This document shows positions 5,289 to 56,312 of a stretch of DNA of 64,000 nucleotides, in pieces. The translations under genes were made by a program, and so were the position numbers. The DNA comes from Solirubrobacter pauli. GTDB taxonomy: Bacteria > Actinomycetota > Thermoleophilia > Solirubrobacterales > Solirubrobacteraceae. Below the pieces are notes generated by a model. It saw nothing but the letters and a program-made list of their open reading frames with translations, was not told the origin of the DNA and searched no databases. Position 1 is the first letter of the stretch, and each line of letters starts with the position of its first letter. The stretch lies in NCBI RefSeq assembly GCF_003633755.1, contig NZ_RBIL01000001.1:295426-359425 (forward strand), written 5' to 3'.

Positions 5289-7373
5289 GTGCGCCAGGGA
5301 ACGCAACTGACCGTCACGGGGTACGTCCGCGTGTCCCAGGTGGGGATGCGACGCGCGCCTCGGTTCATCTCGCCAGAAGTCCAACGCGAGGCGATCGAGC
5401 GCTGGGTGCGCACGCACCGCGCCCGTCTGACCGACGTGCTCGTCGAACTCGATGAGTCGGGAGCACGTGGCGATCGCCCCAAGCTCGGCCAAGCGCTTGA
5501 GCTGATCGAGACGGGCGCTTCGCAGGGGTTGATCGTCTACCGAGTGGCCCGCTTTAGCCGCTCGCTGGCTGACGGGGTCGCGATCATCAAGCGCGTCACC
5601 GCCAACGGCGGCGAGTTCTATTCCGCCGACGACGGGTTCGACACCAGCACCCGAAGTGGCCGGTTGATGCTGCACGTCTTGCTCTCGCTGGCCGAGTCCG
5701 ACATCGAGATCGTCCGAGACGGCTTCGAAGTCGCACACCTGAAAGCCACCGCGCGCGGCGCCTACCAAGGCGCCTACACACCGCTCGGATACCGCCTTAC
5801 GCGCGCTGCCAAGCTGCGCCCAGACCCGCGCACCGCGTCGATCGTCACCGAGCTCTTCCAGCGACGCGCTCGCGGAGAGTCCGTCGCCAGCCTCTGCCGA
5901 TGGCTCGAACAACAGCACGTGCTGACTCCCAAAGGCAACCCCGGCTGGAAAGACGGCACACTGCGCTACCAGTTCACCCGCCGCGTCTACCTCGGCGAGA
6001 TCAGCTGGAACGGGCACGTGCACGAAGGCGCCCACCCCCCGCTTACCGATCCGGACACCTGGCACGACGCCCAACAGCCACGTCAGCGCAGCATCGACTG
6101 GAGCCCGCGCCCATCGCTGCTGTCGGGACTGGTGCGCTGCGCCAGCTGCAGCATGGTCATGAGCCCCATCCGCAGCACCAGCCGCCACCCCGAGATCGTC
6201 AATCACTACCGCTGCCGGGCGATCAGCGCCGGAGGCGCCTGCCCCGCCCCCGCCAGCATCACCACCCAATACCTCGAGCCCTACGTCGAAATCGCCATCC
6301 TCGAGGTGCTCCGGCGACGCAGACGCGCCCCACAAGCCGCGCTCGAAGCCGCACAACACACCCTCGACCGCGCAGAACGAGACCTGGCCAAATACCGCGA
6401 CAGCCCACGAGTCCTGCACGTGCTCGGCGAAATGGACTTCGCCGCCGGCCTGCAAATCCGCGCCGACCGCGCCCGCGATGCCCGCGCACACCTCGCCGCC
6501 GTCCGCGCGCGATCACGGCTGCACGCGCTCCCACCCACCGAGCACATCGAAGCTCATTGGGCCGACATGCCCATCAGAGCCCGCCACGAGATCATCCGCG
6601 CCGTCCTGGATTGCGTGTTCGTCAAACCAGGCCGCCTAGACGTCGAAGAACGCGTGATCGTCTGCCCGCACGGCACCGCCCCCACGCGCCTCCCCCGCGC
6701 CGGCGACAACCACAGCCGTGCTCGTCCCTACACACCGCCCAAAAGCCTTCCTACCGCGACAGCCCAACGTTCGGCATACCTCTGGTCCAGGACGCGTATC
6801 GAACGCGAACTGCGCCAGTTCCTACGAGGCCGTAACCGATGGCCGTCACGAGACGAGTTCCACGCCGCTGGCTACAGACGCCTGCAGACCAACGTCGTCC
6901 TCGGCGACGGCGAGCACTATTGGGCGCTTCGCACTCACACCCCCATCGACAACCACGACGCCGTGGCGCCTTGGACCGAGCGCCGCATCCGCGAGACGCT
7001 TGTGCTCTATCTCGCCGACAAGCACAGCTGGCCAACCTTCGCCCAGTTCTCCCGCGACGGCATGCAGTCGCTCCGCTACGCCCTTATTGAGACCGGCGGC
7101 GTGCGCGCCTGGCAAAACCTCTTCCCACACCCTGCCGAACGCCGCAATGATCGCCGAGAGTCAGGCTGGGACGAAGGCCAGATCCGCACCGAGCTAACTT
7201 CCCTACTTGCAGGAAGGGCCCGCTTTCCCACGCGACGCGAGTTCGCGGACGCCAATCAGGAGCGGCTCTATAGCGCCCTCATTCGACACGGCGGCGTGAG
7301 CCAATGGGCCCGCGAGTTCGAGCTCCCCACGGCCCGCCCGCGAGATGAACCCCCGTCCGGACGGCGCCCTTAG
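5289..7373 (+). CDS. large serine recombinase (integrase) with three C-terminal repeats
   Basis: 694 residues, GTG start. The N-terminal resolvase fold has the catalytic serine in GYVRVS (Ser16), the arginine loop in YRVARFSRSLADG and a LMLHVLLSLAESD helix. A recombinase domain (GYRL..., VYLGEISWNGHVHEG) and a zinc ribbon (CASCSMVMSP ... YRCRAISAGGACPAP) follow, then a coiled-coil helix. After residue ~510 come three ~50-residue units of the form W-x-x-x-x-I-R-x-E-L ... FP/WPTR-x-EF ... LxxALIxxGGVxxW, which typical integrases lack. They look like extra helical DNA-binding units. It probably integrates and excises this element by itself or with a directionality factor. Confidence 0.9.
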   Translation: MRQGTQLTVTGYVRVSQVGMRRAPRFISPEVQREAIERWVRTHRARLTDVLVELDESGARGDRPKLGQALELIETGASQGLIVYRVARFSRSLADGVAIIKRVTANGGEFYSADDGFDTSTRSGRLMLHVLLSLAESDIEIVRDGFEVAHLKATARGAYQGAYTPLGYRLTRAAKLRPDPRTASIVTELFQRRARGESVASLCRWLEQQHVLTPKGNPGWKDGTLRYQFTRRVYLGEISWNGHVHEGAHPPLTDPDTWHDAQQPRQRSIDWSPRPSLLSGLVRCASCSMVMSPIRSTSRHPEIVNHYRCRAISAGGACPAPASITTQYLEPYVEIAILEVLRRRRRAPQAALEAAQHTLDRAERDLAKYRDSPRVLHVLGEMDFAAGLQIRADRARDARAHLAAVRARSRLHALPPTEHIEAHWADMPIRARHEIIRAVLDCVFVKPGRLDVEERVIVCPHGTAPTRLPRAGDNHSRARPYTPPKSLPTATAQRSAYLWSRTRIERELRQFLRGRNRWPSRDEFHAAGYRRLQTNVVLGDGEHYWALRTHTPIDNHDAVAPWTERRIRETLVLYLADKHSWPTFAQFSRDGMQSLRYALIETGGVRAWQNLFPHPAERRNDRRESGWDEGQIRTELTSLLAGRARFPTRREFADANQERLYSALIRHGGVSQWAREFELPTARPRDEPPSGRRP

Positions 7374-8730: not shown

Positions 8731-8770
8731 CGCCAAAAACCTGGGACAGCAGCTTGTCTGCGCCTCCTAG
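8731..8770 (+). promoter_or_regulatory. element-specific promoter, copy 1 (GGGACA / CCTCCTAG)
   Basis: An A-rich stretch (CCAAAAACC) is followed by GGGACA at 8743-8748, 14 nt, and CCTCCTAG at 8763-8770. The ATG of the HTH gene lies 33 nt after the first G of GGGACA. The position matches -35/-10 elements with the transcript starting at the ATG. Confidence 0.75.
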
Positions 8771-8775
8771 TGGTC

Positions 8776-8979
8776 ATGAGCAACCTCACATCCCTGCCCG
8801 CCCTCCCCCTCGACCAGCCCCTTCTGAATGCCAACGACGCAGCCGGGCTGCTGGCCGTGCGACCGAGCTGGATCTACGAGGCCGTCCGCTCCGGTCAGCT
8901 GCCCTGCCTGCGCATCGGCCGCCACATCCGCTTCACACGAGCGATGCTCGAAGCGTGGCTTGCCGAACAGTGCTCCTGA
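8776..8979 (+). CDS. excisionase-family HTH DNA-binding protein
   Basis: 67 residues. The MerR/excisionase-type helix-turn-helix is clear: LNANDAAGLLAVRPSWIYEA, then SGQLPCLRIGRHIRFTRAML and EAWLAEQ. ATG 8776 was chosen over the in-frame GTG 8770 because the conserved promoter places the start there and leaves no room for a ribosome-binding site, so the mRNA is probably leaderless. It could be the directionality factor for the serine integrase 1.4 kb upstream or a regulator of transfer genes. Confidence 0.8.
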   Translation: MSNLTSLPALPLDQPLLNANDAAGLLAVRPSWIYEAVRSGQLPCLRIGRHIRFTRAMLEAWLAEQCS

Positions 8980-10123: not shown

Positions 10124-10159
10124 AGAAAGGTGGGACAACCGTAGGTCTGCGCCTCCTAG
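10122..10159 (+). promoter_or_regulatory. element-specific promoter, copy 2
   Basis: AAAGAAAGG, then GGGACA at 10132-10137, 14 nt, and CCTCCTAG at 10152-10159. The ATG at 10165 lies 33 nt after the first G of GGGACA. The site begins at the stop codon of the preceding gene. Confidence 0.75.
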
Positions 10160-10164: not shown

Positions 10165-11919
10165 ATGGCCAGACCTACACCCCCCTCCCAAGGCCCGCAG
10201 ACCATGACCGCGCTGCTGGGCGCATGCGCAGCTCTCGCGCTTGCCCCGGCACTCGCCACCGGAGGCATCGCCGCCATCGCCATGCGCCGACGGGGGCTGC
10301 GGTTCACCTGGAGCCTCGCCGCCCTCCCGGTCCTCGCGCTCCCGCTGCTCGCCATCGGGCCGCTCGACGCCGTCGCGAACCTCGAACGCGAACTGCGATC
10401 GCTGCACGCGGGCGCCCCGCGACCTCTCACGCTCATCAACACGGCCGCGGCGTTCTGGCTGCCGTGCAGCGCCCTTGTCGCCACCGCGGGCAAGCTGTGG
10501 ATCGACCGACGAGACCGGCTACACGGCGGCTCGCGCGAGACCCGTAGCCGCGCATCCCTCGGCCCCCTTCAACTGCTCGCACTACGCCACCAGCGCGCGA
10601 GAGCAGCCGCAGCCGGCCGCACCGGCCCAGACGGCACCTTCTTGCTCGGACACGACTCCACGCACGGCCGCCCGTTCCGGGTGCCGCTGCCGCAGGCGCA
10701 CGCAACCATCGTCGGCGGATCGAACACGGGCAAGACCAACACCGCTGAGATCCTGCTCGAGGGCGCCGCTGCCGCCGGCGGCAGCTTCGTCATCCTCGAC
10801 GGCAAAGGCGGACGCGACCTGGCCCGCAGCGCGTACGTCCTCGGCGAGCGCTACGCGCGCCCAGTCGCCCTGTGGTCGGTGCTCCCCTACGGCGATGAGC
10901 AACTGGACGCGCTCCGCTTGCCGTGGAATGTGGCCGGAGGCGGCAACCCGACCGAAATCAAGGACCGGATCGCCAGCAGCGAAGAGCAAGCCGAGCCCTA
11001 CTACGAAGCCGTCGCCGCACGCGGCGTGCTCGCCGCCACGCAAGCCCTGCACGCCGTCAACGACGGACAAGCCGATCTACGCAGCCTCGCCGAGCTGCTC
11101 GACAGCCCCGACAACAAGCTCATCGCCGCGCTCGAGCACGCAGACCCCACCCGCTTTGAGAGCACGCTCGCCTGGCTCCGAACGCTCGGCGACGCCGAAA
11201 AGTCCGGCCTGCGCGGCATGGGCCTACGCCTGCACACGATGATCGCCTCCGACGGCGGGCAATGGCTCCTGCCAGACCCACGTGGCCAAGAGATCGACCT
11301 CTACACAGCCATCCGGGACGGCTGGCTAGTGGTCTTCACGCTCCCACAGGGCAGCTACCCAGAGCTGATCCCGCACGTCGCGCGGTACACGATCTCAGCC
11401 GTCAACGCCGTCGCCGGCCGCCTCGAACGCGAAGGCCACACCGCCAACGCCGTGCTGTTCATCGACGAACTCTCCGCCTTTGACGGAGACCAGCTCTGCG
11501 CGACCTACGAACGCGCCCGCTCAGCGGGCATCCGCGTCGCGACCTCCACGCAATCGCTCTCAAACCTCGAAGACGTCGGCGGAACCAAGCTCCTGCACGC
11601 CGCACTCGACAACGCCGAGCTGATCATCGTGCACCGCCAAGCCGTACCCGACACGGTCGAGCTGCTCTCCAGCCTCGCGGGCACCGTCGAAGCCTGGGAG
11701 CACACGCACAAGATCGACGACGCCCACAGCTTCCACATGGGCCTGGACGAGGTCGGCGAGCGCAACCGTCGCCTCACCGACAAATTCCGCGTGCACCCAA
11801 ACCAGATCAAACACCTCGGCAAAGGGCAAGCCGTCGTCATCAGCCAACGCCCCACCCTCTCGGCAACGCCCGTGAACATCGCGCCCGGCCTCAGCGCAAT
11901 CCGTCGAGGCCACGGATGA
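10165..11919 (+). CDS. type IV coupling ATPase (VirD4/TraD-like)
   Basis: 584 residues. Three hydrophobic segments lie in the first ~110 residues (ALLGACAALALAPALATG; LAALPVLALPLLAIGPL; INTAAAFWLPCSALVATAG). Walker A GGSNTGKTN follows near residue 184 and Walker B VLFIDELSAF near 430, then STQS and HRQA motifs typical of TraD-type ATPases. It should dock DNA substrate at the secretion channel encoded at 42-53 kb. ATG 10165 rather than GTG 10159 is favoured because promoter copy 2 puts the leaderless start there. It is the first gene of a run with parA and its partner. Confidence 0.88.
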   Translation: MARPTPPSQGPQTMTALLGACAALALAPALATGGIAAIAMRRRGLRFTWSLAALPVLALPLLAIGPLDAVANLERELRSLHAGAPRPLTLINTAAAFWLPCSALVATAGKLWIDRRDRLHGGSRETRSRASLGPLQLLALRHQRARAAAAGRTGPDGTFLLGHDSTHGRPFRVPLPQAHATIVGGSNTGKTNTAEILLEGAAAAGGSFVILDGKGGRDLARSAYVLGERYARPVALWSVLPYGDEQLDALRLPWNVAGGGNPTEIKDRIASSEEQAEPYYEAVAARGVLAATQALHAVNDGQADLRSLAELLDSPDNKLIAALEHADPTRFESTLAWLRTLGDAEKSGLRGMGLRLHTMIASDGGQWLLPDPRGQEIDLYTAIRDGWLVVFTLPQGSYPELIPHVARYTISAVNAVAGRLEREGHTANAVLFIDELSAFDGDQLCATYERARSAGIRVATSTQSLSNLEDVGGTKLLHAALDNAELIIVHRQAVPDTVELLSSLAGTVEAWEHTHKIDDAHSFHMGLDEVGERNRRLTDKFRVHPNQIKHLGKGQAVVISQRPTLSATPVNIAPGLSAIRRGHG

Positions 11920-14778: not shown

Positions 14779-14815
14779 AAGAAAGGCGGGACACCGGAGG
14801 CGCTGTGCCTCCTAA
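14779..14815 (+). promoter_or_regulatory. element-specific promoter, copy 3 (CCTCCTAA variant)
   Basis: AAGAAAGGC, then GGGACA at 14788-14793, 14 nt, and CCTCCTAA at 14808-14815. Spacing is identical to copies 1 and 2. Here the first good Shine-Dalgarno start lies 74 nt past the -10, so this transcript has a leader. Confidence 0.65.
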
Positions 14816-29064: not shown

Positions 29065-29069
29065 TTCGC

Positions 29070-34589: not shown

Positions 34590-34628
34590 AGAATTTTGTG
34601 GGACAAGGCGAGAGCCGCGTCTCCTGAG
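34590..34628 (+). promoter_or_regulatory. diverged element-specific promoter before the sigma factor gene (copy 7)
   Basis: AGAATTTTGT, then GGGACA at 34600-34605 and CTCCT at 34621-34625. The distance from GGGACA to CTCCT (21 nt, start to start) is the same as in copies 1-3; the last bases differ (GAG instead of AG). The ATG is 36 nt from the first G. It suggests autoregulation. Confidence 0.55.
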
Positions 34629-34635
34629 GACGTAG

Positions 34636-36144
34636 ATGACCACCGCAGCGACGCTTACTGCGCTCCGTACGGCGCACCCGATCGAGCAATTTGTTCGCGA
34701 CCAGCACCGCACGCTCGAGCGCTGGCTGACCAAGCTCTTCGGACGCAAGCTCGCGCCCGAAGAGATCAGCGACGTCCTCGGTGACACCTACCGCGCTGCG
34801 CTAGAGACCGATGAGACAGCGGCGTTCGATGCCGAGCGCATGAGAGCCTGGGCTTACCAGGTCGCTCGCTTCCGCGCGATCGGCGTCATTCGCTCGCGTA
34901 ACGGCCGCTCCACGACCGAAACCGGCCGACGGAGCTTCGTCTCGCTCGACCAGATCGACGGGCCCGATTACCGATCGCAGAACACCCGCGTGGATTTGGA
35001 GCACGCGGTCGTCGCCACCCCCGGTGGGGAGGCCGCCGCGTCCGCGTTGTCCAGCGAATCCGCCTACGCGGAGATCGCCAACGCGCTCAGCGACGACGCG
35101 CGCGCCCAGGAAGCGCGCCGGGTCACCGAAGCGATGCTGCGGCTCCCCGAAGACCAGCGCGAGGCATTGCAGTACGTGCACATCGACGGCCTGACCGTCC
35201 GTGCGGCCGCCGAGCTGCTGGGCACCAGCAAGTCGAGCTTCGATCGCCTGTACCGGCGCGCGCTCTCTCGCCTGCAGGCGCTGTGCGCGGCCGAGCAGGA
35301 CGCCGACTGCGCCCAGGCGCGCGCGCTCATGCAGTCCAAGACCGCCCTGGCCGCCGAGCTCATCGGCTGGCGCGACGCGCACATCGAAGGCTGCTTCTCC
35401 TGCCAGGTCGCCGCCGGGCGCCGCGTGAAGCTGCTCATCCCGGCCCTGCCGGTCATCGTTTACCGCCCGGGCTGGCTTGCCCGCGCTACCGATCGCCTCA
35501 CGCAGCTGCTCTCGCGCGGCGACACGCTGCCCACCGAGGCCGTCGCCGCCGGGATCGGCACCGCGGGCGCGGGCGGCACCGTCGCCGGAAGCACGCTGCT
35601 CGGCGGCATCGCCACCAAGGCCGCCGCCTGCGCCGTCGCCGCCACGTGCGCCGCGGGCGCAGCCGTTACCGTCCCCGCCGTCGTTCACCACGAGCGCAAG
35701 GCTCCGGTCAGGACCGCCAAGGCGACCGCCACGCCCAGCCCGCGCGCAACCTCCACCCCCAAGGCGATCGCGCCGGCCATCACGCCCGCAGCGACGAGCG
35801 CAGCTTCGACCTCGCTGACCACCGACGAGGCCGCGCGCCGTTCGGCGAACGCCGAAGCAGCCGCCGCTGCCGAGCGCGCCCGCAAGCGCCGCGCCGCCAA
35901 GGCCGCCAAGGCCGCCAAGGCGAAGGCCGCCAAGGCTCGCGCCGCGAAGGCCAAGGCCAAGAACGACGCGGGAGCCGAGTTCTCGCCCGAGTCCTTCCGG
36001 CCCGCCGCTACGCCCGCGCCGAGCGCGCCGCGCGCCACGGCCGCCAGCGGCACCACCACAGCACGCACGCCGTCGACATCGACGACCGCGCCCAAGTCTT
36101 CCTCCCAATCGACCTCGAGCTTCTCTGAGGAGTTCAGGCCATGA
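34636..36144 (+). CDS. ECF-like sigma factor fused to a zinc anti-sigma-like motif, membrane anchor and outer tail
   Basis: 502 residues. Region 2-like helices lie at ~15-95 (IEQFVRDQHRTLERWL ... MRAWAYQVARFRAIGVIRSR) and region 4 at ~160-217 (LRLPEDQREALQYVHIDGLT, then VRAAAELLGTSKSSFDRLYR). HIEGCFSC (249-256) is the H-x3-C-x2-C motif of ZAS anti-sigma domains. A hydrophobic segment at ~321-350 is followed by a 150-residue Ala/Lys/Pro/Thr-rich tail ending FSEEFRP. Sigma and anti-sigma modules in one tethered chain imply release by proteolysis or a conformational switch. It overlaps the next secreted protein gene by 4 nt. Confidence 0.82.
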   Translation: MTTAATLTALRTAHPIEQFVRDQHRTLERWLTKLFGRKLAPEEISDVLGDTYRAALETDETAAFDAERMRAWAYQVARFRAIGVIRSRNGRSTTETGRRSFVSLDQIDGPDYRSQNTRVDLEHAVVATPGGEAAASALSSESAYAEIANALSDDARAQEARRVTEAMLRLPEDQREALQYVHIDGLTVRAAAELLGTSKSSFDRLYRRALSRLQALCAAEQDADCAQARALMQSKTALAAELIGWRDAHIEGCFSCQVAAGRRVKLLIPALPVIVYRPGWLARATDRLTQLLSRGDTLPTEAVAAGIGTAGAGGTVAGSTLLGGIATKAAACAVAATCAAGAAVTVPAVVHHERKAPVRTAKATATPSPRATSTPKAIAPAITPAATSAASTSLTTDEAARRSANAEAAAAAERARKRRAAKAAKAAKAKAAKARAAKAKAKNDAGAEFSPESFRPAATPAPSAPRATAASGTTTARTPSTSTTAPKSSSQSTSSFSEEFRP

Positions 36145-38348
36145 GCGGGACCTCGCCCCACCACAACGCCAATCCCCGGCCGACGAACGGCCTGATCTTC
36201 ACCAAGGAGTTCTCCTTGTTTCGACTCATCGGCCGCTCAGGCGCGGCCGCCTCGCGTGTGACGTGGGGCACCCAGCCCAGGAAGGGCCGTCTTCTCTCCT
36301 CCCTGGTCGCTCTCACGGCCGCGTTCGCTGTCGCGGCCCCGGCCGCGAACGCCGGCATCTACACGGTGCGTGGCACCACCGGGTGGACTGCCGACGCTGA
36401 CAGCAACGGGACCGGGTTCGTCTCGACCTGGGGCGACTCCACCACGATCGTCGGCCAGTTCTCGTTGCCGCGCACCGGCTTCGGCCAGGGCGAGATGGTC
36501 TCGATGGGCTACTACACGACCGCCATGAACCTCGTCGGTGCGTCCTTCGTAAGTACGCAGTCCGGCATGACCGGAGGTCCGTGGGTTTCGTTCGCGCGTG
36601 CCGACGGCGTCGGCATCGGCGCAGAGGTTCCGACCTACAACCACGGCCCGCAGCCCTACGGCTACTCGTTCGGTCCGTCGTACGCGTTGTCCGTGGAACT
36701 CGGGTGCGGAGGCCCGGGCGACTGCTTCGGCTCGAATGCCGAGCTGCGCGTCTCGGACCTGCAGCTGGCGTTCCAGGACAACTCGAACCCGAACGTGACC
36801 AACGCCACCGGGCCGCTCGTGAGCACCACGACGCTCCAGGGCTCCGTGGACATCAACGTCAGCGCGACCGACGCGTCCTCGGGCGTCTACCGCGGCTGGA
36901 TCGAGGTTGACGGCGTCAACCGCGGGTACTTCCCGATGGACCCGTCCAACGCCAGCTGCACCGCGATCGCCGCGGGCTACGTGTTCGCCAAGGAGCTTCC
37001 GTGCAGCGCCTCGGCGATTCGGACGCTCTCGCTCAACACCACCGCGCTCAGCGACGGCGCGCACACCGTCGAAGTCTTCGTCGAAGACGCCTCAGGCAAC
37101 AAGAAGCGCGCGTTCGGCCCGGTCTCCCGCACGATCGACAACGTCCCACCGCCGATCAACACCAGCGATCCACTGATCACCGGCCTGCTTCGTCACGGGC
37201 AGACGCTCGCCACCGACACCGGCACCTGGACCGGCACAGGCATCACCTTCGCGCGCCAGTGGCAGCGCTACGACACCGGTTCGGGGACCTGGCTCAACAT
37301 CGCTGGCGCGACCGGCCCCACGTACGCCGTCCAGACTGACGACTACGGCAAGAAACTCCGCACGCGCGTGCGCGCCACCAACGTTGAAGGCACCACGGAC
37401 GCCTACTCGGAGCCGGTCGGCCCGATCGCGTCGCCGACCGACCCCAAGGGCGACTTCGACGGCGACGGCATCGTCAACGAGGACGATCCCGACGACGACA
37501 ACGACGGCGTCCCCGATGACGGCGACGCCAACCCGCACGACCCGTCCGTCGGCCTCCCGCCCGGTCAGGGGGGCCCTGGCGTTCCCGCGCCCGACGACGG
37601 CTTCAACGGCGGCGGCGGTGGCACCGGCAATAACAACGGGGGCGGCGGTTCCGGCGGCGGCGCGGGCAGCGGCACCGGCATCCGCATCGAGACTCAGAAC
37701 GGCGAGGGCCCCGTCGCCACCGCGGCGCTCGCGGCCAGCTTCGAGGGCACCAAGAGCAAGACCATCAAGGTCAAGTGGGGCGCCAAGCGCAAGATCACCG
37801 GCACCCTGCTCGGCCGCGACCGCCAGCCGATCAAGGGCGCCAAGCTCGACGTTCACGAGACGCCGCAGCTGATGGGCGCCACCGCGATCGCTCGCGGCCA
37901 GGTCGTCACCGACGCCAAGGGCCGCTTCAGCTACCAGCTGCCCGCCGGCGTCTCGCGGACCATCCGCATCGCCTACAAGAGCATCCTGGAAGCCAGCACC
38001 TACGCGCAGAGCACCGACGTCACGGTGCAAGTCACACCCAAGGTCACCATGAAGGCCAACCGCAAGGCGCTGCGCAACAAGCAGGCCGTCACGTTCAAGG
38101 GCAAGATTGCCGGGGCCCCCGCCGGCGTTCGCAAGATCGTTGAGTTCCAGGCCCTCGACGGCAAGAAGTGGCGCACGTTCGCCAGCACCCGCGTGGCCAA
38201 GAAGGGCGGCACCTTCAAGTACCGCTACCGCTTCACCCGCACCACCCGCACGACCAAGTACCAGTTCCGCGCGATCATTCGCGCGGAGAAGGGCTGGCCG
38301 TTCGCGACCGGACAGACCAAGCCCATCAACGTCAAGGTCCGCCCGTAG
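36141..38348 (+). CDS. secreted protein with Ig-like, Ca-binding and basic beta domains
   Basis: 735 residues; a long pre-region precedes the signal peptide (LLSSLVALTAAFAVAAPAAN, then AG). N-terminal beta-sandwich (~65-220), two Ig-like domains, a thrombospondin-3/dockerin-like Asp-rich stretch (DFDGDGIVNEDDPDDDNDGV), a Gly-rich linker and two basic beta domains at the C-terminus. Probably an adhesin or surface structure. ATG overlaps the sigma factor stop (ATGA), so it is in the same run. Confidence 0.8.
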   Translation: MSGTSPHHNANPRPTNGLIFTKEFSLFRLIGRSGAAASRVTWGTQPRKGRLLSSLVALTAAFAVAAPAANAGIYTVRGTTGWTADADSNGTGFVSTWGDSTTIVGQFSLPRTGFGQGEMVSMGYYTTAMNLVGASFVSTQSGMTGGPWVSFARADGVGIGAEVPTYNHGPQPYGYSFGPSYALSVELGCGGPGDCFGSNAELRVSDLQLAFQDNSNPNVTNATGPLVSTTTLQGSVDINVSATDASSGVYRGWIEVDGVNRGYFPMDPSNASCTAIAAGYVFAKELPCSASAIRTLSLNTTALSDGAHTVEVFVEDASGNKKRAFGPVSRTIDNVPPPINTSDPLITGLLRHGQTLATDTGTWTGTGITFARQWQRYDTGSGTWLNIAGATGPTYAVQTDDYGKKLRTRVRATNVEGTTDAYSEPVGPIASPTDPKGDFDGDGIVNEDDPDDDNDGVPDDGDANPHDPSVGLPPGQGGPGVPAPDDGFNGGGGGTGNNNGGGGSGGGAGSGTGIRIETQNGEGPVATAALAASFEGTKSKTIKVKWGAKRKITGTLLGRDRQPIKGAKLDVHETPQLMGATAIARGQVVTDAKGRFSYQLPAGVSRTIRIAYKSILEASTYAQSTDVTVQVTPKVTMKANRKALRNKQAVTFKGKIAGAPAGVRKIVEFQALDGKKWRTFASTRVAKKGGTFKYRYRFTRTTRTTKYQFRAIIRAEKGWPFATGQTKPINVKVRP

Positions 38349-38374: not shown

Positions 38375-39718
38375 ATGCCCTCTCGCGCCATCCGGCGCGG
38401 CGTGACCGGCGCCCTGGCGGCCTTTGTGGCCGCCGGGGCGCTGGCCGGTCCCGCCAGCGCCCAGGTTCTCCCCGACAACTTCCCCAGCCCGCAGGCCAAG
38501 CTCGCCAACGCCGAGTTTCTCGCGCAGGCACCCGCGCCCGCCACGGGCGCCGGCACCGTCTGCGTCATCGACACCGGCGTCTCCCAGCTCGCTGACCTCG
38601 ACACCCAGGTCATCGAGCGCATCAGCGCCGTCGGCGGCAACGGCGAAGACATCTACCACCAGGCTGACAACCCCTACAGCGGGCACGGCACCTTCGTCGC
38701 CTCCACGATCGCCAGCCGCGTCGACGGAGTCGGCTCTGCAGGTATCTGGCCCGCCGCCAAGATCATCAGCGTCCGGGTTGCTCGCGCCGCCGGCAGCAAC
38801 GCCACGTCAGCCGACTACCGCACTGCGATCAGCGAGTGCGCGAGAGTCGACAGAGGCGTGGACGTGATCAACCTCTCGTTGGGGGCCTCCTACATCGACG
38901 CCGACGATCTCGCGCGCCTCGAGAACAAGATCATCAACGCTCGCCGCGACAAGAACATCAACGTCGTGGCCTCCACCGGCAACGACGGAAACAACATCCA
39001 GGTCAACTATCCGGCTCGATTCGCCGACGCCTTCGCCATCGGCGCAACCGACCCGAACGGCGCGTTCTGCTCGTTCTCGAACCGTGGCACCGGCCTCGAC
39101 CTCTCCGCTCTCGGCTGCAACACCTACGCCACCGGTTTCGATGGCGGTGTCGGTGCGTTCCATGGCACCTCGTTCGCGGCTCCCACGGCTGCCGCGGTGC
39201 TTGTCGCTCTGCGTTCCTACATGCCCGGGCTGACCGCTAATGCGGCCGAGGAGCTGCTGCTCAGGACCGCGCGCCAGACGGCTGCCGGTCCTGTCCTGGA
39301 TGCGGCTGCTGCGTTCCGGGCGGCTGGCCTCGGTGCGTTGGTCGACGCGTACGTCGCGCCGCAGCTGCCGAACGGCGGCGGCGATGCCGCCGGCGGCGGG
39401 AACACCCCTCCTGGTGGCCCCGAGGTCGTGACCAAGGTCGACGTCACGCACGTGCCCGACGTCGTCGAGACCAAGCTCTCCAAGCCGAAGGCTCGGAAGG
39501 CGTCGCTCAAGCGCGGCACACTGACGGTGCAGGTCGCCAAACCGCCCAAGGGCGCGGTGGCGGTCTTCCGGGTCGGTGGACGGTCCTACGAGCGCAAGAA
39601 CGGGAAGCTGACGCTGAAGAAGGTGCGCTCTTGGCGGACCGTCACTGTGTTTATCGAAGATCAGTGGGGCGTTCGGTCTGACTCGCTCAAGGTTCGACGC
39701 CCTACCGGGCGTCGTTGA
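38375..39718 (+). CDS. secreted subtilisin-like serine protease (S8)
   Basis: 447 residues. Signal peptide ends ...GPASA. Catalytic triad D66 (VIDTG), H104 (SGHGTFVAS) and Ser ~266 (HGTSFAAPTAA) are present, with the oxyanion-type Asn in VASTGNDGNN. No long propeptide. A Gly/Pro linker and a basic beta domain of ~95 residues follow. It lies 26 nt after the previous gene and two genes from the membrane-tethered sigma factor, so it is a candidate site-1 protease for it (inference). Confidence 0.88.
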   Translation: MPSRAIRRGVTGALAAFVAAGALAGPASAQVLPDNFPSPQAKLANAEFLAQAPAPATGAGTVCVIDTGVSQLADLDTQVIERISAVGGNGEDIYHQADNPYSGHGTFVASTIASRVDGVGSAGIWPAAKIISVRVARAAGSNATSADYRTAISECARVDRGVDVINLSLGASYIDADDLARLENKIINARRDKNINVVASTGNDGNNIQVNYPARFADAFAIGATDPNGAFCSFSNRGTGLDLSALGCNTYATGFDGGVGAFHGTSFAAPTAAAVLVALRSYMPGLTANAAEELLLRTARQTAAGPVLDAAAAFRAAGLGALVDAYVAPQLPNGGGDAAGGGNTPPGGPEVVTKVDVTHVPDVVETKLSKPKARKASLKRGTLTVQVAKPPKGAVAVFRVGGRSYERKNGKLTLKKVRSWRTVTVFIEDQWGVRSDSLKVRRPTGRR

Positions 39719-39758: not shown

Positions 39759-41378
39759 ATGAAGCTGCTGCGCATTTCAATCTCAACTCTGGCCGCCGCA
39801 ATCGCGGCGGCCATCGCCGTTCCCGCCGCCCAAGCGGGCACGTACGACGTTCTCGCCTGCGACGCCGCCCCCGGCGCCGCAAATAACTCGTGGACGTTCG
39901 AGACCAACAGCAGCACTTACGTGGCCAGCTCGGCAGCTTGTCCTTCCACTTCGAACCGCTCGGGCCTTCTGGTCACCGACAAGCTCGGCACCGGCGGCCC
40001 GTCGGCTTCCGCAGCCGTCTTCGGTCAGTGGATCGTTCGCGCTCCCGGCGGTACGACGATCTCCCGGATCCGCGTCCGACGCTACCTGAACATGGACGGC
40101 GGCACCGGCTGGCGCCTCTACGGGCGTCAGGCCGATGGAACGACCATCACGGGCGAGACGTGCACCGTTCAGGCAGGCCAGGACGATTGCACCGTCGGCG
40201 GCTTCGGTTCTGCGGTACTCGACCGGGCACTGAACACCACATCGGTCGCCTACGGCTTCGATTGCCCTACGACCGGCTCAGGTTGCAACACCGGAGCCAT
40301 GATCCACGCGGCGAGCGCAGCCATCTACTCGGCGAACGTGACGATCAATGATCCGACGTCGCCGGCGATCGGCGCGCCGACCGGTGATCTTGTGCGCGCT
40401 TCGGGCTTTCACAAGGGCACCGAGTCGGTCACGTTCAACGGCACCGACGCGCTTGGCATCAGCGCGCGTCGGCTCTACGTGGACGGCTCGCTGGTCGCGT
40501 CGGACGCGCCGACGTGCAACTTCACGCAGCTGGTCCCGTGCTCGAACCCGGGCACGCCGGTCTCGCTCTCGGCTGACCTGAACGCGCTCGCCGACGGCTC
40601 GCACACCGTGCAGGTCGCGGTCGTGGATGCGGCCAGCAACGAGACGCGGTCAGCGGCGACGTCGATCGTCGTCGACCACACCGCGCCGGACGTCCCGCAG
40701 ACCCTGCAGGCCGCCGCGCGCGCGACCACGGACGCGGCGTTTACCGCGTCCTGGACTGTCCCGGCCGGCCAGGTCGCGCCAATCAGCGCCGCCCATTGGC
40801 GGCTGTGCCCGGACGCGGGCCCGTGCCAGACCGGCACGACGCCTGGCTCCACGGTCAGCGGCACGCTGCCCGCCTACGGGCAGTACACGCTGTTCGTCTC
40901 GCTCGAGGACGCCGCTGGCAACCGGGGCGCGGAGACGACGCTGCCGCTCGCGTACAGCGCGCCCGCTCCGCCGACGCCGACGGCTACGCCGACCCCGCCG
41001 GTCGCTACGCCGACTCCGACGCCGCCTGTGGCGACGCCGACGCCGGTCCCGAGCGCGACCCCCACGCCGCGGGCTAACCCGCGCCTGAAGGTCACGACGG
41101 CCACGCTCAAGCGCTCCACGCGCACCGTCTCGGCCGCCGGCACCACCGCGGCGCCCGTCACGGGCACGGTGCGCATCAAGCTCACCTACCGCGTCGGCCG
41201 CAAGGCCCGCACCAAGACGCTCTCCGCGTCGCTCAAGCGCGGCCGCTACACGGCCCGCACGCGCCTGTCTTCGACCGACGCCCGCCGGGCCACGAAGCTC
41301 TCGGTGGCCGTGAAGTACACGGGCAACTCGAACTACAGTGGCGCGTCCACGCGCCGCACCGTGAAGGTCCGGCGCTAA
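39759..41378 (+). CDS. secreted Ig-like domain protein
   Basis: 539 residues. Signal peptide ends ...PAAQAG. A ~190-residue N-terminal beta-rich domain with four or more cysteines (LACDAAPG; TCTVQAGQDDC; DCPTTGSGC) resembles the N-terminal domain of neighbouring secreted proteins. Ig-like/Fn3-like domains, a (TPTP)n linker and a basic beta tail follow. Probably structural or adhesive. It closes the sigma factor gene run before a strong terminator. Confidence 0.75.
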   Translation: MKLLRISISTLAAAIAAAIAVPAAQAGTYDVLACDAAPGAANNSWTFETNSSTYVASSAACPSTSNRSGLLVTDKLGTGGPSASAAVFGQWIVRAPGGTTISRIRVRRYLNMDGGTGWRLYGRQADGTTITGETCTVQAGQDDCTVGGFGSAVLDRALNTTSVAYGFDCPTTGSGCNTGAMIHAASAAIYSANVTINDPTSPAIGAPTGDLVRASGFHKGTESVTFNGTDALGISARRLYVDGSLVASDAPTCNFTQLVPCSNPGTPVSLSADLNALADGSHTVQVAVVDAASNETRSAATSIVVDHTAPDVPQTLQAAARATTDAAFTASWTVPAGQVAPISAAHWRLCPDAGPCQTGTTPGSTVSGTLPAYGQYTLFVSLEDAAGNRGAETTLPLAYSAPAPPTPTATPTPPVATPTPTPPVATPTPVPSATPTPRANPRLKVTTATLKRSTRTVSAAGTTAAPVTGTVRIKLTYRVGRKARTKTLSASLKRGRYTARTRLSSTDARRATKLSVAVKYTGNSNYSGASTRRTVKVRR

Positions 41379-42160: not shown

Positions 42161-42199
42161 CGAAAAAAAGCTGGGACAGCCGCGCGGGCTGCCTCCTAG
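42161..42199 (+). promoter_or_regulatory. element-specific promoter, copy 4 (T4SS operon 1)
   Basis: CGAAAAAAAGC, then GGGACA at 42173-42178, 13 nt, and CCTCCTAG at 42192-42199. The ATG at 42206 is 33 nt from the first G. Confidence 0.78.
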
Positions 42200-42205: not shown

Positions 42206-43438
42206 ATGACACCGCCTACCGCGCTCGACGGCCTCTCGGCCGCCATGATCCCGGGCACGGGCATTCAGGCGCGGCCCACGCCGCCGCCAGCGCCGCCCCG
42301 AATCGATCCCGCGACCCCGTCGCAGGCCAAGCCCGCCGCGGCCAAGAAGGCGCCCGCCGCCAAGAAGCCGGCCGCCAAGAAGAAGCTCGCAGCGGCCAAG
42401 AAGCCCGCCGCCAAGAGGAAGCCCGCAGCGGCCAAGAAGCCCGCCGCCGCGAAGGCAGCCAGGTTGGAGGTCTCCCCGGACGCGGAGACGGCGACCGCCA
42501 CCACCGTCGATGTCCTCGAGCCCCAGCCCGAACAGGACGCGGCCACGGTCGCGCCCGTGATCCTCCTCGACGAGCTTGACGACGCGCACGGCCAGGAGGA
42601 CTACGACGCGGCCATCCTCAACGAGGAGCCGCCCGACGTCACCGACAGCGTCCCGGACTACGACGAGGACGAGGCCGACGAGGAAGCCGACGAGGAGGAG
42701 GCTGAGCCTGAAGCGGTCGCGATCGAAGCCGACGTGGATGAGCCGACCGGCGCGGTTGCGCCGGTGGTCACGGCGCCCGCTGCCGAGAGGCTGTTCATTC
42801 CCGACGCGGCGGCCGACGTGCCCCAGCGCAGGGCGTTCACGCCTCCCATCCCTGGTCGCACCCCGACGGCCGTGGAGTCGTCGCCCTGGGCGCTGCTCGA
42901 GGACGATGCGCCCGCCGCCCCGGCAGCGCCAGAGGCGGCCGAGGCTCCTGAGCCGCCCAAGCGGACCAAGCGCTCGATCGCGCTGCCACGGTCGCCGCAC
43001 ATCACGCGCGGGCGCGTGCTCGCGTTCGGCGTGCTCGCGCTGATCGGCGTCGGCCTGCTCGGCGGCACCCCGTCTAAGCCGCCCACGTCGGTCGCCTCCA
43101 CGCCCGCCCCGGCCACGCCCGCCACGGCGGCCTCGCCGTCGCCGACGGCCACCGCGACTCCGACCGCTACCGCCACGGCAACGCCGACCGCCACCGCGAC
43201 GCCGGCGCGTCGCTCGTCTGCCAAGAAGGCCACATCGACCAAGCGCAAGCGGCGCTCGAGCGCGCGGGAGCGTCCTCGTGCCCGCGTGCAGACGCGGACG
43301 GTCTACGTGCCCGTCCCCGCCCCCACTTCCGCCGCTCCTGCGGCCCCTCGCACCACGACCCCGACACCGGCCGCGCCGCGCTCGGCTCCCGCACCTTCAG
43401 CGAGCCGCAGCGGCTTCTCCTCCGAGTTCCGCCCCTGA
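42206..43438 (+). CDS. membrane protein with H1-like Lys/Ala tail, acidic middle and outer FSSEFRP end
   Basis: 410 residues. Residues ~35-86 are PAAKK-type repeats like histone H1 tails. An acidic domain follows (DYDEDEADEEADEEEAEPE), then one TM helix at ~270-287 (VLAFGVLALIGVGLLGG), then a Thr/Pro-rich outer part. The last residues FSSEFRP match FSEEFRP at the end of the sigma factor. First gene of T4SS operon 1, leaderless start. The Lys-rich tail could touch DNA near the channel; no relative is recognised. Confidence 0.7.
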   Translation: MTPPTALDGLSAAMIPGTGIQARPTPPPAPPRIDPATPSQAKPAAAKKAPAAKKPAAKKKLAAAKKPAAKRKPAAAKKPAAAKAARLEVSPDAETATATTVDVLEPQPEQDAATVAPVILLDELDDAHGQEDYDAAILNEEPPDVTDSVPDYDEDEADEEADEEEAEPEAVAIEADVDEPTGAVAPVVTAPAAERLFIPDAAADVPQRRAFTPPIPGRTPTAVESSPWALLEDDAPAAPAAPEAAEAPEPPKRTKRSIALPRSPHITRGRVLAFGVLALIGVGLLGGTPSKPPTSVASTPAPATPATAASPSPTATATPTATATATPTATATPARRSSAKKATSTKRKRRSSARERPRARVQTRTVYVPVPAPTSAAPAAPRTTTPTPAAPRSAPAPSASRSGFSSEFRP

Positions 43439-47052: not shown

Positions 47053-47091
47053 GCAAAGAAATGTGGGACAGCGTCGGCGTCCGCCTCCTAG
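47053..47091 (+). promoter_or_regulatory. element-specific promoter, copy 5 (T4SS operon 2)
   Basis: GCAAAGAAATG, then GGGACA at 47065-47070, 13 nt, and CCTCCTAG at 47084-47091. ATG 47098 is 33 nt from the first G. CCTCCTAGCCCTACATGAC is identical to copy 4. Confidence 0.78.
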
Positions 47092-47097: not shown

Positions 47098-47382
47098 ATG
47101 ACCGCCACTGATTCCCCGCTCGACGAGGTCCTGCTCGCCGTCGCGCTGCTCGCTCAGCATGGCGAGAAGGCGACCCCGGCCGCCGTCCAGACCATGCTGC
47201 CGCTCGGGACCAACTGGATGCACGCGCGACTCGCGCTCATCGAAGCCCAGCTGCTGCACCTGATCGACGAGGACGGCCTGACCGCTGCCGGTCTGTCACG
47301 GGTCAACGAGTGCCCCGCGCGCCGGTCCTTGCTCTCTCTGCTGGCCGCTCCTGCCGACGCGGACTTGGAGCTGGTCGCGTGA
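47098..47382 (+). CDS. small helical protein, first gene of T4SS operon 2
   Basis: 94 residues, leaderless ATG. Winged-helix-like layout: LLAVALLAQHGEKATPAAVQ, then TNWMHARLALIEAQLLHLID and EDGLTAAGLSRV. It could be a regulator of the operon. The stop overlaps the VirB4 gene start (GTGA). Confidence 0.65.
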   Translation: MTATDSPLDEVLLAVALLAQHGEKATPAAVQTMLPLGTNWMHARLALIEAQLLHLIDEDGLTAAGLSRVNECPARRSLLSLLAAPADADLELVA

Positions 47383-50081
47383 GCGTTGCCAGCCCCCGCA
47401 AGACCGCGAAGAAAAAGGACGGCGCGCAAGGACACGCCGGCGATTTCTTCGGCGTGGAGGCGCTGTTTGAGGACGGGCTGCTCGTCCGCGAAGACGGCGT
47501 GTTCGTCCGCTACCTGGAGATCATCCCGCGCAACCCGCTGGTCATGGACGAGCGCGATTGCGAGGAGCTCGCGGCCGGGTTCGGCGCGCTGGTGCGGCAG
47601 ATCCCGGCGGGCGCGAGCGCGCAGTTCTACGTGGACGCCACGCCGCTGCGCCTGGCTGACGTGCTCGCGCGCTACCGCACGCAGGTCACCAACGCCACCG
47701 CGCCGCTTGAGGCGGGCGGGCCCGAGCATCAGCAGCGCGCGGCCGCGCTGCGCGCGCTCGCTGCGGTGCACGCTGAATCGCTGACTCAGCACGCCGACGA
47801 TCACGCCGCCGTGCAAGTCCGCTACGTCGCTGTTCTGCCGTTTGATCCGGCGCTGGCCAGCCGGCGCCCGGGCGCGATCCAGCTGCGGCCCGCACGGCGC
47901 GCCGCGGTGCTCGAGCGCGACGTGGAAGCGCATCAGCGCCTCGCGCGCGAGAGCCAGCGCTACACCGACGGCATCCGTTCGGAGCTGGGCGCGAACGGGC
48001 TGCAGGCGCGCGCGCTGGACGGCAGCGAGATCGCCGACCTGCTGTGGCGGCGCGGGGCCCCGCGCGCCGCGCACGCCGACGCGGCCGTCGCGCCGTCCCG
48101 GCACGCCACGCAGCTGCTGGCGAGCATCGACACGCAGGCCGACCTTGAGCGCGCCAAGCGCGGCGCTCAGGGCCTGCGCGACGTGCTCGCCCAGGGCGCG
48201 ATCGACGATCACAGCTCGCATCGCTGGCTGGGGATCGACGGCGACCTCGAGCAGACCGTCTACCTGTCCAACGTGCCCGAGCACACGTTCTTCGGGTGGG
48301 TGCTGCACGCGATGCAGTCCCAGCACCCGTGGACGCTGACCGTGCACTTGACCGCGCGCGATCGCCACTCCGAGCGCCAGCGCTACAAGCAGAAGGGACG
48401 TCGTCTGCGTGGCGTGATGAACGCCGCCCATGACCTCGAAGACGACCAGCTCGACCAGGCCGGTGAGCTGCGCGCGCTTGGCCAGGAACTCGCCAACCCC
48501 GTCAACACCATCTACGACATGTCGGTCTACGCGAGCGTGCGCGAGCACGGCCCGCAGCCCGACACGATCGCGCTGACCGAGTCCGTCGATCAGCTCATGC
48601 GCGACGTCTCTGATGCCCTGCAGGGCCGGATGCAGCGCGGCGAGTTCGAGCAACTCGCGCTCTGGCGCTCCACCCTGCCGCTTGGGCTCGACGTCGCCGC
48701 CAAGACGCGCCCATACACCACGCGCAACGTCGCCGACAGCCTGCCGCTGCTGGGCACGTCCTGCGGGTCCCCCGGCGGGCTGGTGCTCGGCTACGCCGAC
48801 CCGGGCCGCACGCTCGAGCACCTGGACCCCTTCGACCCGTTCCACGACAACGGCACGCTGATCATCAACGCCAAGTCCGGCGGCGGCAAGACGTTCCTGG
48901 TGTTGCACCTGCTCGTTCAGGCGCTCACGCACGGCGCCCAAGCCGCCGTCATCGACCGCTCGGCCGGCCACTTCAAGTTCCTGTGCTCGCTGATCCCCGG
49001 CGCCCAACACGTGCAGATCGGCGGCGACGACGAGCACACCATCAACGCCTGGGACGTCGAGGACATCGCCAACGTTCCCGCCTCAAAGATCAGCTTCCTC
49101 GTCCGCTTGCACGCGATGCTGATCGGCGACCACCACGCCGCCCAAGACGCGTTCGGCCTCTCCCCGCTTGAGCGCAGCCAGCTGAGCATCGCCATCCGCG
49201 AGGTCTACGACGACGCGGCCCGCACCGGGTACGTGCCGTGCGAGTCCTACCTGCAGGACATGCTCCTGCGCCGCGCCTCCGATGAAGCCAAGGCCGAAGA
49301 GGGCTCGGTCGAGATCGCCGCCATCAACCGCTCACTCGCCGAGCGCCTGCACGACTACGTCGGCAACGGCGCCTACGCGACCTTGCTGGACCGCCCCACC
49401 ACCATCGACGCCGACGACGCGCCGCTGCTGGTCATCGACACGCGCCTGGTTCCCGAGGACGTCAGCCCCGCTGTGCTGTTCGTGATCTCTGAGGGGATCA
49501 CGCGCCGCGTGGAGGCGCGCCGCGAAGCGCACCTGGCGTCCGGGCGCGCGGGGCACGCGGACGCGGGCATGTTCGACGGGCGCTTCATGCTCGTCCTGGA
49601 GGAGCTGTGGAAGCTCGTCGGGCGCCGCGCGACCGGCGAGTGGATCGAGGACCTCGGCCGCCGCGCCCGTCACATCGGCCTGTTCTTGCTCGGCATCAGC
49701 CAGCAGCGCGGCGACCTCGCCGGCCCCTACGGCAAGGCGCTGCTCAACAACTCCACGATGCAGGTGTTCCTGCGCACGCCCAAGGACGAGCTCGATCACC
49801 TGAAGGAGACGCTCAAGCTCGCCGACACCGAGCTTGACCTGATCTCCGGGCTGCGCACCGAAAAGCGCGCCTACAGCCAGGCGTACGTCATCAACGGCAC
49901 GCGCGGGCGCGGCGTGGTCTCCATTCGCGTCGGCCAGCGCGCCTACTGGCTGGCCACCAGCGACCCGCTGCGTGACGTGCCGCTGCGCGAGCGCGCCCTC
50001 CAGGACGCCGATGGACAGCCCTGGGTCGCGCTCGACTTGCTCTGCGATCACGACTGGCACCGCGCCCTAGCGGACGGCTGA
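47379..50081 (+). CDS. VirB4/TraE-type conjugation ATPase
   Basis: 900 residues from GTG 47379. N-terminal domain ~1-430 (VEALFEDGLLVREDGVFVRY is a typical VirB4 opening), Walker A NAKSGGGKTF at ~497-506, Walker B FMLVLEELWKLV at ~735-745, then the ISQQ motif and the NNSTMQVFLRT segment. Powers pilus assembly and substrate transfer at the inner face of the membrane. Overlaps both neighbours. Confidence 0.92.
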   Translation: MSVASPRKTAKKKDGAQGHAGDFFGVEALFEDGLLVREDGVFVRYLEIIPRNPLVMDERDCEELAAGFGALVRQIPAGASAQFYVDATPLRLADVLARYRTQVTNATAPLEAGGPEHQQRAAALRALAAVHAESLTQHADDHAAVQVRYVAVLPFDPALASRRPGAIQLRPARRAAVLERDVEAHQRLARESQRYTDGIRSELGANGLQARALDGSEIADLLWRRGAPRAAHADAAVAPSRHATQLLASIDTQADLERAKRGAQGLRDVLAQGAIDDHSSHRWLGIDGDLEQTVYLSNVPEHTFFGWVLHAMQSQHPWTLTVHLTARDRHSERQRYKQKGRRLRGVMNAAHDLEDDQLDQAGELRALGQELANPVNTIYDMSVYASVREHGPQPDTIALTESVDQLMRDVSDALQGRMQRGEFEQLALWRSTLPLGLDVAAKTRPYTTRNVADSLPLLGTSCGSPGGLVLGYADPGRTLEHLDPFDPFHDNGTLIINAKSGGGKTFLVLHLLVQALTHGAQAAVIDRSAGHFKFLCSLIPGAQHVQIGGDDEHTINAWDVEDIANVPASKISFLVRLHAMLIGDHHAAQDAFGLSPLERSQLSIAIREVYDDAARTGYVPCESYLQDMLLRRASDEAKAEEGSVEIAAINRSLAERLHDYVGNGAYATLLDRPTTIDADDAPLLVIDTRLVPEDVSPAVLFVISEGITRRVEARREAHLASGRAGHADAGMFDGRFMLVLEELWKLVGRRATGEWIEDLGRRARHIGLFLLGISQQRGDLAGPYGKALLNNSTMQVFLRTPKDELDHLKETLKLADTELDLISGLRTEKRAYSQAYVINGTRGRGVVSIRVGQRAYWLATSDPLRDVPLRERALQDADGQPWVALDLLCDHDWHRALADG

Positions 50082-53624: not shown

Positions 53625-53661
53625 GAAAAAAGTTGGGACAGCTCGGCAGCCCGCCTCCTAG
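53623..53661 (+). promoter_or_regulatory. element-specific promoter, copy 6 (ssb side)
   Basis: GCGAAAAAAGT, then GGGACA at 53635-53640, 13 nt, and CCTCCTAG at 53654-53661. The ATG at 53669 is 34 nt from the first G and a GTG is 31 nt away, so here the fit to a leaderless start is one base off. Confidence 0.72.
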
Positions 53662-55198: not shown

Positions 55199-55392
55199 TG
55201 GGCGCGCACGCCAACCGCTGCGCGCGCGTTGCCGAGCTGCGCGCCGCGTACCGGCACCGGCGGCTCACCGTCGACCACGCGCCCGCCACGCGCATCACCC
55301 GCCCGATCGAGGGCGCGATCGCCTTCGACACCACGGCGGTCGCCAGCGCCGTCCTGTCCGCGCTCACGCCGCTCGCTGGGCGGCCGGCGTGA
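55198..55392 (+). CDS. small hypothetical protein
   Basis: 64 residues between two overlapping genes (TGATG before, GTGA after). Basic N-terminal half (RVAELRAAYRHRRL), hydrophobic C-terminal helix (AVASAVLSALTPLAG). Likely a real member of the primase operon, function unknown. Confidence 0.5.
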   Translation: MGAHANRCARVAELRAAYRHRRLTVDHAPATRITRPIEGAIAFDTTAVASAVLSALTPLAGRPA

Positions 55393-56312
55393 CCGCCACG
55401 ATCATGCTTGCCCCCAAGCCCGACATCGCGCTGCACGCCTACCTGGCCATGCTCGGCGGCGACGGCCAAGGCTGGCTGGAAGTGCGCTACCGCACCCGTC
55501 GCGGGATGCGGACCCTCTTCTACCCCGCGCGCGGCCGCTCGCGGCAGCTGGCCGCGATGATCCGTCGCGTCAGCGAACACTCCGACGTCTACATCGGGTG
55601 CGCCATCCGGGGCGAGCGCGCCGGCGACAAGGACGCCGTCGCGGGCTCCTGGGTCGCCTGGGCCGAGCTGGACACCAAGGACGCGATCAACCGGCTCGCG
55701 AGCTTCACGCCCGCGCCCACGATGCTGATCTCGTCCGGCACGCCCGGGCACATGCACGCCTACTGGGCGCTGACCGAGCGCGCCAGCGCAGACGCGATCG
55801 AAGACGCCAACAAGCGCCTGGCCTACGCCGTCGGCGGCGACCCCGTCTGCTTTGACAGCACGCGCATCCTGCGCCCGCCCGCGACGCGCAACCACAAGCA
55901 CACGCCCGCCCTGCCCGTCCAGCTCGAAGAGGCGTGCGCTGCGCGCCGCTACTCGCTGGAGGAGCTGATCGACGGGCTCGAGCTGCCACCTGCCCCCGTC
56001 ACGCCCGGGATCGGCGGCGAGCGCACGCACGTCGAAGACGACGCGGACCTACTGACCATCTCGCCCGACGTCTACGTGCCCGCGCTGACGGGCGTCTCGG
56101 AGATCGGCCGCAGCCGCAAAATCTGCTGCCCGATCCACAAGGAGCGGACACCGTCGCTGCACGTGTACCCGTCGGCCGAGCAGGGCTGGTTTTGCTTCGG
56201 CTGCCGCCGCGGCGGCTCGATCTTCGACCTCGCCTCCTACCTGTGGCAGCTCGACACCAAGGGCCCCGAGTTCGTCGAACTGAAGGAGCGCCTTCGGGAG
56301 CTGTTCCGGTGA
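55389..56312 (+). CDS. primase: RepB-type PrimPol-like domain plus CHC2 zinc finger
   Basis: 307 residues, GTG start overlapping the previous stop. N-terminal part has VAWAELDTKDAINRLASF, SGTPGHMHAYWAL and DSTRILRPPATRNHK, the pattern of RepB-type primase domains. C-terminal part has a DnaG-like zinc finger CCPIHKERTPSLHVYPS followed by WFCFGCRRGGSIFDLASYLW. No TOPRIM domain. Probably primes replication of the element or its transferred strand. Confidence 0.85.
   Translation: MTATIMLAPKPDIALHAYLAMLGGDGQGWLEVRYRTRRGMRTLFYPARGRSRQLAAMIRRVSEHSDVYIGCAIRGERAGDKDAVAGSWVAWAELDTKDAINRLASFTPAPTMLISSGTPGHMHAYWALTERASADAIEDANKRLAYAVGGDPVCFDSTRILRPPATRNHKHTPALPVQLEEACAARRYSLEELIDGLELPPAPVTPGIGGERTHVEDDADLLTISPDVYVPALTGVSEIGRSRKICCPIHKERTPSLHVYPSAEQGWFCFGCRRGGSIFDLASYLWQLDTKGPEFVELKERLRELFR

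Follow-up and report, generated by a model that had tools for sequence, protein, structure and literature searches.

Conjugative elements are usually described as being under the control of repressors and activators or of host sigma factors. Sigma factors that carry their own zinc and membrane parts are known already: as far as the accessible parts of the sources go, members of the actinobacterial groups ECF48, ECF52 and ECF53 are fused to a C-terminal zinc finger and a membrane helix (PMC8999054, PMC5826349), and for ECF52 autoregulation and proteolytic release were proposed (PMC5826349, PMC8999054). Fusion to a membrane anti-sigma and regulated proteolysis are likewise described, in the accessible text of PMC8999054, for IutY (ECF243) of Pseudomonas putida, which serves iron-starvation signalling in a Gram-negative host. 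Known as well is a mobile-element sigma factor which reads its own element: according to the accessible part of PMC6751061, SigN of pBS32 (Bacillus subtilis) recognizes promoters of its own element and activates itself, it is itself controlled by way of a promoter that LexA represses, and the outcome is cell death; no fused anti-sigma is mentioned in that part of the source.

The 64-kb stretch of DNA analyzed in this work (the window; features are listed in Table 1) encodes a fused sigma factor which, as predicted from its sequence, resembles ECF52/SCO4117, ECF48 and ECF53, as presented in the accessible texts, in combining a sigma domain, a zinc finger, one to two membrane helices and a long outer extension. 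Unlike these proteins, it is encoded on an ICE-like element beside VirB4, its apparent regulon is the element itself and it ends in a short C-terminal peptide, while the carbohydrate-binding domain reported for the extension of ECF52 in the accessible part of PMC5826349 was not found in it. IutY and SigN probably share with it the features for which they are cited above; IutY differs from it in signal and host, SigN in promoter control and outcome. The original prediction held the joining of sigma and zinc anti-sigma (ZAS) domains in one chain to be unusual, and this part has to be dropped: ECF48, ECF52, ECF53 and IutY are fused too, and with a threshold of E 1e-8 our profile of the fused form found matches in 140 of the 146 genomes of the family (a count of profile matches, not of zinc motifs and membrane segments confirmed protein by protein), so that the fused form is common and the fusion as such was rejected as a novelty. 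The element-linked sigmas score highest with this profile because it was built from them. What appears to be new is to find such a protein on a conjugative element in combination with promoters that vary from one element to another and with a shared outer peptide. This combination was absent from the open-access matches listed; nor is an ICE-borne fused sigma described in the open-access titles and abstract beginnings among those matches.

We consider it probable that this ECF sigma factor, carried by the ICE-like element and tethered to the membrane, turns on the element's blocks for conjugation and maintenance as well as its own operon. At the sequence level the case is made up of the architecture of the protein, seven like sites of which six are placed as promoters and which are nearly confined to the element, the association with VirB4 and an Ig-like gene in relatives, and a second promoter set of altered sequence in another genus (G036).

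Table 1. Features of the window discussed in the text (aa, amino acids; N14 and N15, spacing between the GGGACA and CTCCT boxes in nt).
Feature	Coordinates	Strand	Remarks
Large serine recombinase	5289..7373	+	recombinase of the integrase/recombinase kind looked for in an ICE
Promoter copy, N15	8743..8768	+	before HTH_17 gene; ATG 7 nt downstream
HTH_17 protein, possible excisionase	8779..8979	+	
Promoter copy, N15	10132..10157	+	precedes the genes for coupling protein and ParA; ATG 7 nt downstream
TrwB/TraG-type coupling protein	10165..11919	+	
Promoter copy, N15	14788..14813	+	no ORF start (at least 40 codons) within 60 nt
Putative sigma-gene promoter, GGGACA-N15-CTCCT	34600..34625	+	ATG 10 nt downstream
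Fused ECF sigma factor, 502 aa	34636..36144	+	open frame with coding signature
Sigma region 2	~34693-34902	+	sub-threshold Pfam match
Sigma region 4	35116-35274	+	above Pfam cut-off
ZAS, C225-C256	35308-35403	+	motif, alignment of nine
Hydrophobic segment of sigma	35629-35685	+	Kyte-Doolittle
Sigma tail	35686-36141	+	EFSP internal, EFRP at C terminus
Ig36, large Ig-like protein	36141..38348	+	no Pfam match; start overlaps sigma stop
Subtilase (S8)	38375..39718	+	has the D-H-S motifs; N terminus resembles an export signal by eye
Ig-like protein (Big_13)	39759..41378	+	Pfam; N terminus export-signal-like by eye
Promoter copy, N14	42173..42197	+	before T4SS block; ATG 8 nt downstream
Single-pass protein	42206..43438	+	opens T4SS block; C terminus GFSSEFRP
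Promoter copy, N14	47065..47089	+	before 94-aa VirB4 leader ORF; ATG 8 nt downstream
VirB4-type ATPase	47310..50081	+	P-loop TraG, weak TraC
Promoter copy, N14	53635..53659	+	before primase block; ATG of 67-aa ORF 9 nt downstream
RepB-type primase	55389..56312	+	with CHC2 zinc finger

TIGR02937 (sigma70-ECF) matched residues 16-214 of the sigma factor with 56.3 bits (cut-off 42.9), Pfam region 4 passed its cut-off on residues 161-213, and Pfam region 2, taken alone, remained sub-threshold on residues 20-89 (E 0.027). A profile of nine homologues covered regions 2 to 4 of the CnrH chain (E 2.5e-12) and also spanned the chains of SigL and SigE, which are solved ECF sigmas. Both regions thus occur in one chain, as had been predicted, and no match to region 3 was listed, regions 2 and 4 without 3 being the arrangement of an ECF sigma. 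The zinc motif expected at residues 249-256 was found exactly there (H249-x3-C253-x2-C256, reading HIEGCFSC); C225, C253 and C256 are invariant in all nine aligned sigmas and H-x3-C-x2-C is present in eight of them, i.e., at the level of sequence both the motif and its upstream ligand are in place. The order C...H-x3-C-x2-C is the layout of zinc anti-sigma domains. Pfam zf-HC2 matched two of the nine sigmas, that of the window not being among them, and Pfam gave nothing beyond residue 214 up to E 0.1. The single hydrophobic segment (residues 332-350) is alanine-rich and of modest strength only (Kyte-Doolittle mean 1.95); it is followed by a tail of 152 residues rich in Ala, Thr, Ser, Arg, Pro and Lys, and both agree with the earlier reading, in which the tail had been put at about 150. 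Single-sequence structure prediction for residues 1-370 was too poor for use (mean pLDDT 38.8). No other ORF in the window or in the 80-kb stretch of G036 matched the sigma profile, and Pfam scans of 35 window proteins revealed no second sigma.

The window was regarded as ICE-like because a serine recombinase, an HTH_17 protein, a coupling protein, ParA, VirB4 and a primase are all present; the pair of T4SS ATPase and coupling protein is found among them, and the frames of VirB4, coupling protein and primase are all open. No canonical relaxase was found among the scanned window ORFs, where weak matches of replication-relaxation and MobC type lay below the cut-off, and comparison with six other genomes of the genus showed neither element ends nor an empty site. 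The sigma gene is followed in order by the genes for Ig36, the subtilase and the second Ig-like protein; near the N terminus of Ig36 a hydrophobic, export-signal-like stretch can be read by eye. A tyrosine-integrase ORF (21523-22302) stands among the conjugation parts, which are also split by two very large ORFs (22406-27972, minus strand, and 29081-32908, with a weak DNRLRE-type match); the region 21523-32908 may be cargo or a nested insertion. Near the serine recombinase, a large ORF on the minus strand (1108-4098) has weak matches to STAND/NACHT-type ATPases and TPR and may be a defence gene.

Upstream of the sigma gene, GGGACA and CTCCT were both found in exact form, as foreseen. The pattern GGGACA-N13..17-CTCCT occurs seven times in the window against 0.15 expected, always on the plus strand, and none of 100 shuffles reached seven. 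It had been claimed that the sigma-gene site shares its exact spacing with the other promoters; this holds for the four copies with 15 nt between the boxes, the sigma-gene copy included, and fails for the remaining three, in which the boxes are 14 nt apart. Six of the seven sites end 7-10 nt 5' of an ATG, so that most transcripts would have little or no leader, and in most copies an A-rich stretch lies directly 5' of GGGACA. With a leave-one-out matrix including this stretch, the sigma-gene site was the weakest of the seven (rank 26 with each spacing listed separately; score 11.7, the best non-site reaching 13.2), owing to an interrupted A-stretch and to a G directly after CTCCT. That the cores are perfect follows from the search pattern itself, which required it; as up to two mismatches at N15 gave 11 matches against 17.3 expected, without any excess, and as no GGGACA-N15-CTCCT copy with exactly one mismatch exists in the window, the family is one of perfect cores and not a cloud of near matches. 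A scan seeded with the region upstream of the sigma gene picked out 4 of 169 ORFs in the window (0-2 of 3747 elsewhere), and an unbiased dyad scan of 35 loci scored 12.8 in the window and 10.2 in G036, the top control score in any locus being 8.2.

In G036, which belongs to a different genus, the promoter motif reads GGGCCA-N15-CCTCT. The pattern GGGCCA-N14..16-CCTCT has nine copies in this 5.1-Mb genome, which is not above the backward control (11); seven of the nine, all with N15, are clustered in a 37-kb region that includes VirB4 and the fused sigma gene. These sites precede the sigma ATG by 9 nt, the first T4SS gene by 8 nt and the HTH_17 gene by 11 nt, another two are found 5' of the genes for ParA and SSB/primase, and the remaining two precede ORFs of 157 and 41 codons; the identities of HTH_17, ParA, SSB and primase were confirmed. 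The sigma-seeded scan picked out 4 of 250 ORFs here against 2-4 of 3666. The sigma factors of the window and of G036 are 20% identical. Promoter positions are thus kept at corresponding genes while the letters differ, as is expected if promoter and reader change together. The predicted link of the sigma gene to the promoter family is supported by its own site and by the parallel promoter in front of the fused sigma gene of G036, and positive autoregulation, the natural reading of such a site, gains strength from the G036 version. In the G036 element (L077/L078), the VirB4 gene and the Ig-like gene are each split over two frames, which may reflect sequencing error or decay.

Homologues of VirB4 were found in 23 of 101 family genomes, with 32 places listed. 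Among the 15 best-scoring VirB4 loci, the window included, 11 have a fused sigma at a distance of 3-12.5 kb, and within 12.5 kb there is none in G069, G078, G002b and G001b; in G069, G002b and G001b the neighbour may have been cut off, as VirB4 stands within ~9 kb of a contig end. The distances between the sigmas correlate with those between the VirB4 proteins (11 loci, r 0.61, Mantel p 0.001), a result to which two close pairs contribute. In 17 of the 20 loci with a sigma profile match better than 1e-40, the next gene after the sigma gene encodes an Ig36 homologue, the exceptions being G049, G002a and G001a, and a subtilase homologue is found near the sigma gene in five; these locus counts are not fully independent, since the G001 and G002 loci are near-identical. 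Judged by gene neighbourhood, fused sigmas keep company with VirB4 and an Ig-like gene in more than one genus. No sigma relative was confirmed in the genome-contig collection, and there was none among the plasmids.

Alternatively, a host sigma factor might be the reader of the promoters, the fused sigma being then just one controlled gene, perhaps in the service of the Ig-like/subtilase operon. The wide distribution of fused ECF sigmas in the family is in line with this, and so is G003, which has three perfect copies of the window promoter (GGGACA-N15-CTCCTAGTGG; L095, contig 122, ~29.2-31.7 kb, and L096, contig 140, ~21.1 kb) in front of an HTH_17 gene, a replication-relaxation type gene and a 141-aa ORF, and in which no VirB4 match and no element-clade sigma were found (best profile match 3.2e-24). 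Host promoters should, however, be found if a host sigma reads them. The 7.1-Mb genome holds 26 pattern matches (8 for the backward-pattern control), among them 11 with 14-15 nt spacing, seven of which are those of the window; as to the 19 outside copies, none of the four with 14-15 nt spacing has an ORF start (at least 40 codons) 4-13 nt downstream, and the three of the other 15 that precede an ORF start at this distance all have 16-nt spacing. Moreover, the G036 promoter, as judged on its clustered copies, differs along with the element's own sigma. Considering this, we regard reading by a host sigma as unlikely.

G003, together with the loci that lack a detectable family, constitutes the main weakness of the view that the fused sigma reads these promoters. 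The G003 copies may be remnants or mark an element that depends on a helper, or the promoter may have a different reader. In the dyad scan, the other 33 of the 35 loci yielded no family with a score above 8.2, the highest value among all controls, a few of them (such as G086, G035, G039 and G019) lying slightly above their own controls, and the sigma-seeded scan detected none in the other 18 of 20 loci, including G000b and G005a, which harbor the closest sigma relatives. Two candidate promoters, CGGAGG/CGCCTA for the G000b/G005a/G002a group and TTGCTC/CGGCT for G083/G083b, were rejected, as their occurrence at other genes stayed within the noise. The extended core is present in 4 of 399 genomes of the class, namely G000, G003 and, with one copy each, G217 (L173, contig 1) and G310 (L172, contig 87), the two single copies belonging to other families of the class.

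The sites might also be operators of a DNA-binding protein of the element (HTH_17 or replication-relaxation), acting as activator or repressor. Such genes do stand next to the sites in G003, and HTH_17 genes occur in the window, G036 and G003 alike; two unlike boxes 14-15 nt apart that form no inverted repeat, at a near-fixed distance from the start, nevertheless fit a promoter better, and by reading of the sites no other promoter-like boxes were seen between CTCCT and ATG, which makes an operator quite improbable. That the element is degraded and its sites are relics which no longer function seems very improbable indeed, since, although a tyrosine-integrase ORF and large surface-type genes interrupt the conjugation parts and the six genomes compared did not disclose its ends, seven perfect cores with no one-mismatch copy at N15 are unlike decay, the VirB4, coupling-protein and primase frames are open, and a parallel set is kept in another genus.

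If the tethered sigma factor itself is the reader, as we favor, its zinc anti-sigma domain would keep it off at the membrane, with the tail presumably outside the cell. An outside event, probably acting via the C-terminal peptide of the tail and the Ig-like or subtilase partners, would trigger stepwise proteolysis, a step borrowed by analogy from ECF52 and IutY as presented in the accessible texts (PMC8999054, PMC5826349). The freed sigma would then read GGGACA/CTCCT, near-leaderless transcripts would start and the sigma would amplify itself. Apparently, a conjugative element here owns a membrane-tethered sigma together with a promoter set, the two differing in concert between two elements, and one outside signal could switch on the transfer genes together. 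This suggests, in a form open to testing, how cell-surface events could be coupled to transfer by an element, possibly through a physical link of the sigma tail to the transfer machine, and the two naturally different sigma/promoter pairs provide material for specificity tests.

The possible link of the tail to the transfer machine comes from an exploratory comparison of C termini. Element-linked sigmas end in EFRP, EFGP, EFDP, EFEGP, PEFP, NEFF/SEFN, FSP, YLG plus one residue, or EIGIEP/EFGIETP, and seven fused sigmas away from such elements are without these motifs. Among 7,599 ORFs of the 35 loci, the tail pattern matched 23 fused sigmas, as expected of a pattern derived from these very tails, and a single further protein, the single-pass protein which opens the T4SS block of the window; its 121-residue tail ends in GFSSEFRP against SFSEEFRP in the sigma, with differing codons. 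Ranked by C-terminal similarity to the sigma of the locus, a single-pass protein of this kind came out on top in 6 of 23 loci (window, 1/382; G098, 1/200; G016, 1/115; G083b, 1/225; G039, 1/137; G019, 1/267), the first place in the remaining loci being taken by another ORF, which in G035 is a second sigma. On visual inspection, EF-type sigmas (window, G035, G049, G016, G044 and G086) are paired with EF-type partners, YLG-type sigmas (G083, G083b, G039 and G019) with YLG-type partners and the FSP-type sigma of G098 with an FSP-type partner; G036, where the single-pass protein ends in PGSPAA, breaks the pattern. When neutral filters were applied to 20 loci (four non-element and two near-duplicate loci were dropped), the summed sigma-partner similarity was 308 against 245 (sd 18) in shuffled pairings, the exploratory permutation p of 0.001 still containing the shared ancestry of some elements and the filters having varied between analyses. 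The best filtered candidate is without the motif in 12 of the 20 loci, four of which (G049, G083b, G019 and G086) have a motif-bearing candidate in other listings.

Tentatively, and as a possibility we ourselves hold to be rather doubtful, the sigma tail and the single-pass protein of the T4SS might present one and the same C-terminal peptide to a common partner outside the cell, probably the Ig-like protein encoded beside the sigma, so that by competition the element would read the build state of the apparatus or contact with a mate and release the sigma once the apparatus is ready. The flagellar sigma/anti-sigma checkpoint follows a logic similar to that of such an assembly or contact checkpoint in conjugation. 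In G035, two fused element-type sigmas (C1:532202 and C1:558294) flank one VirB4, and both end in EFGP.
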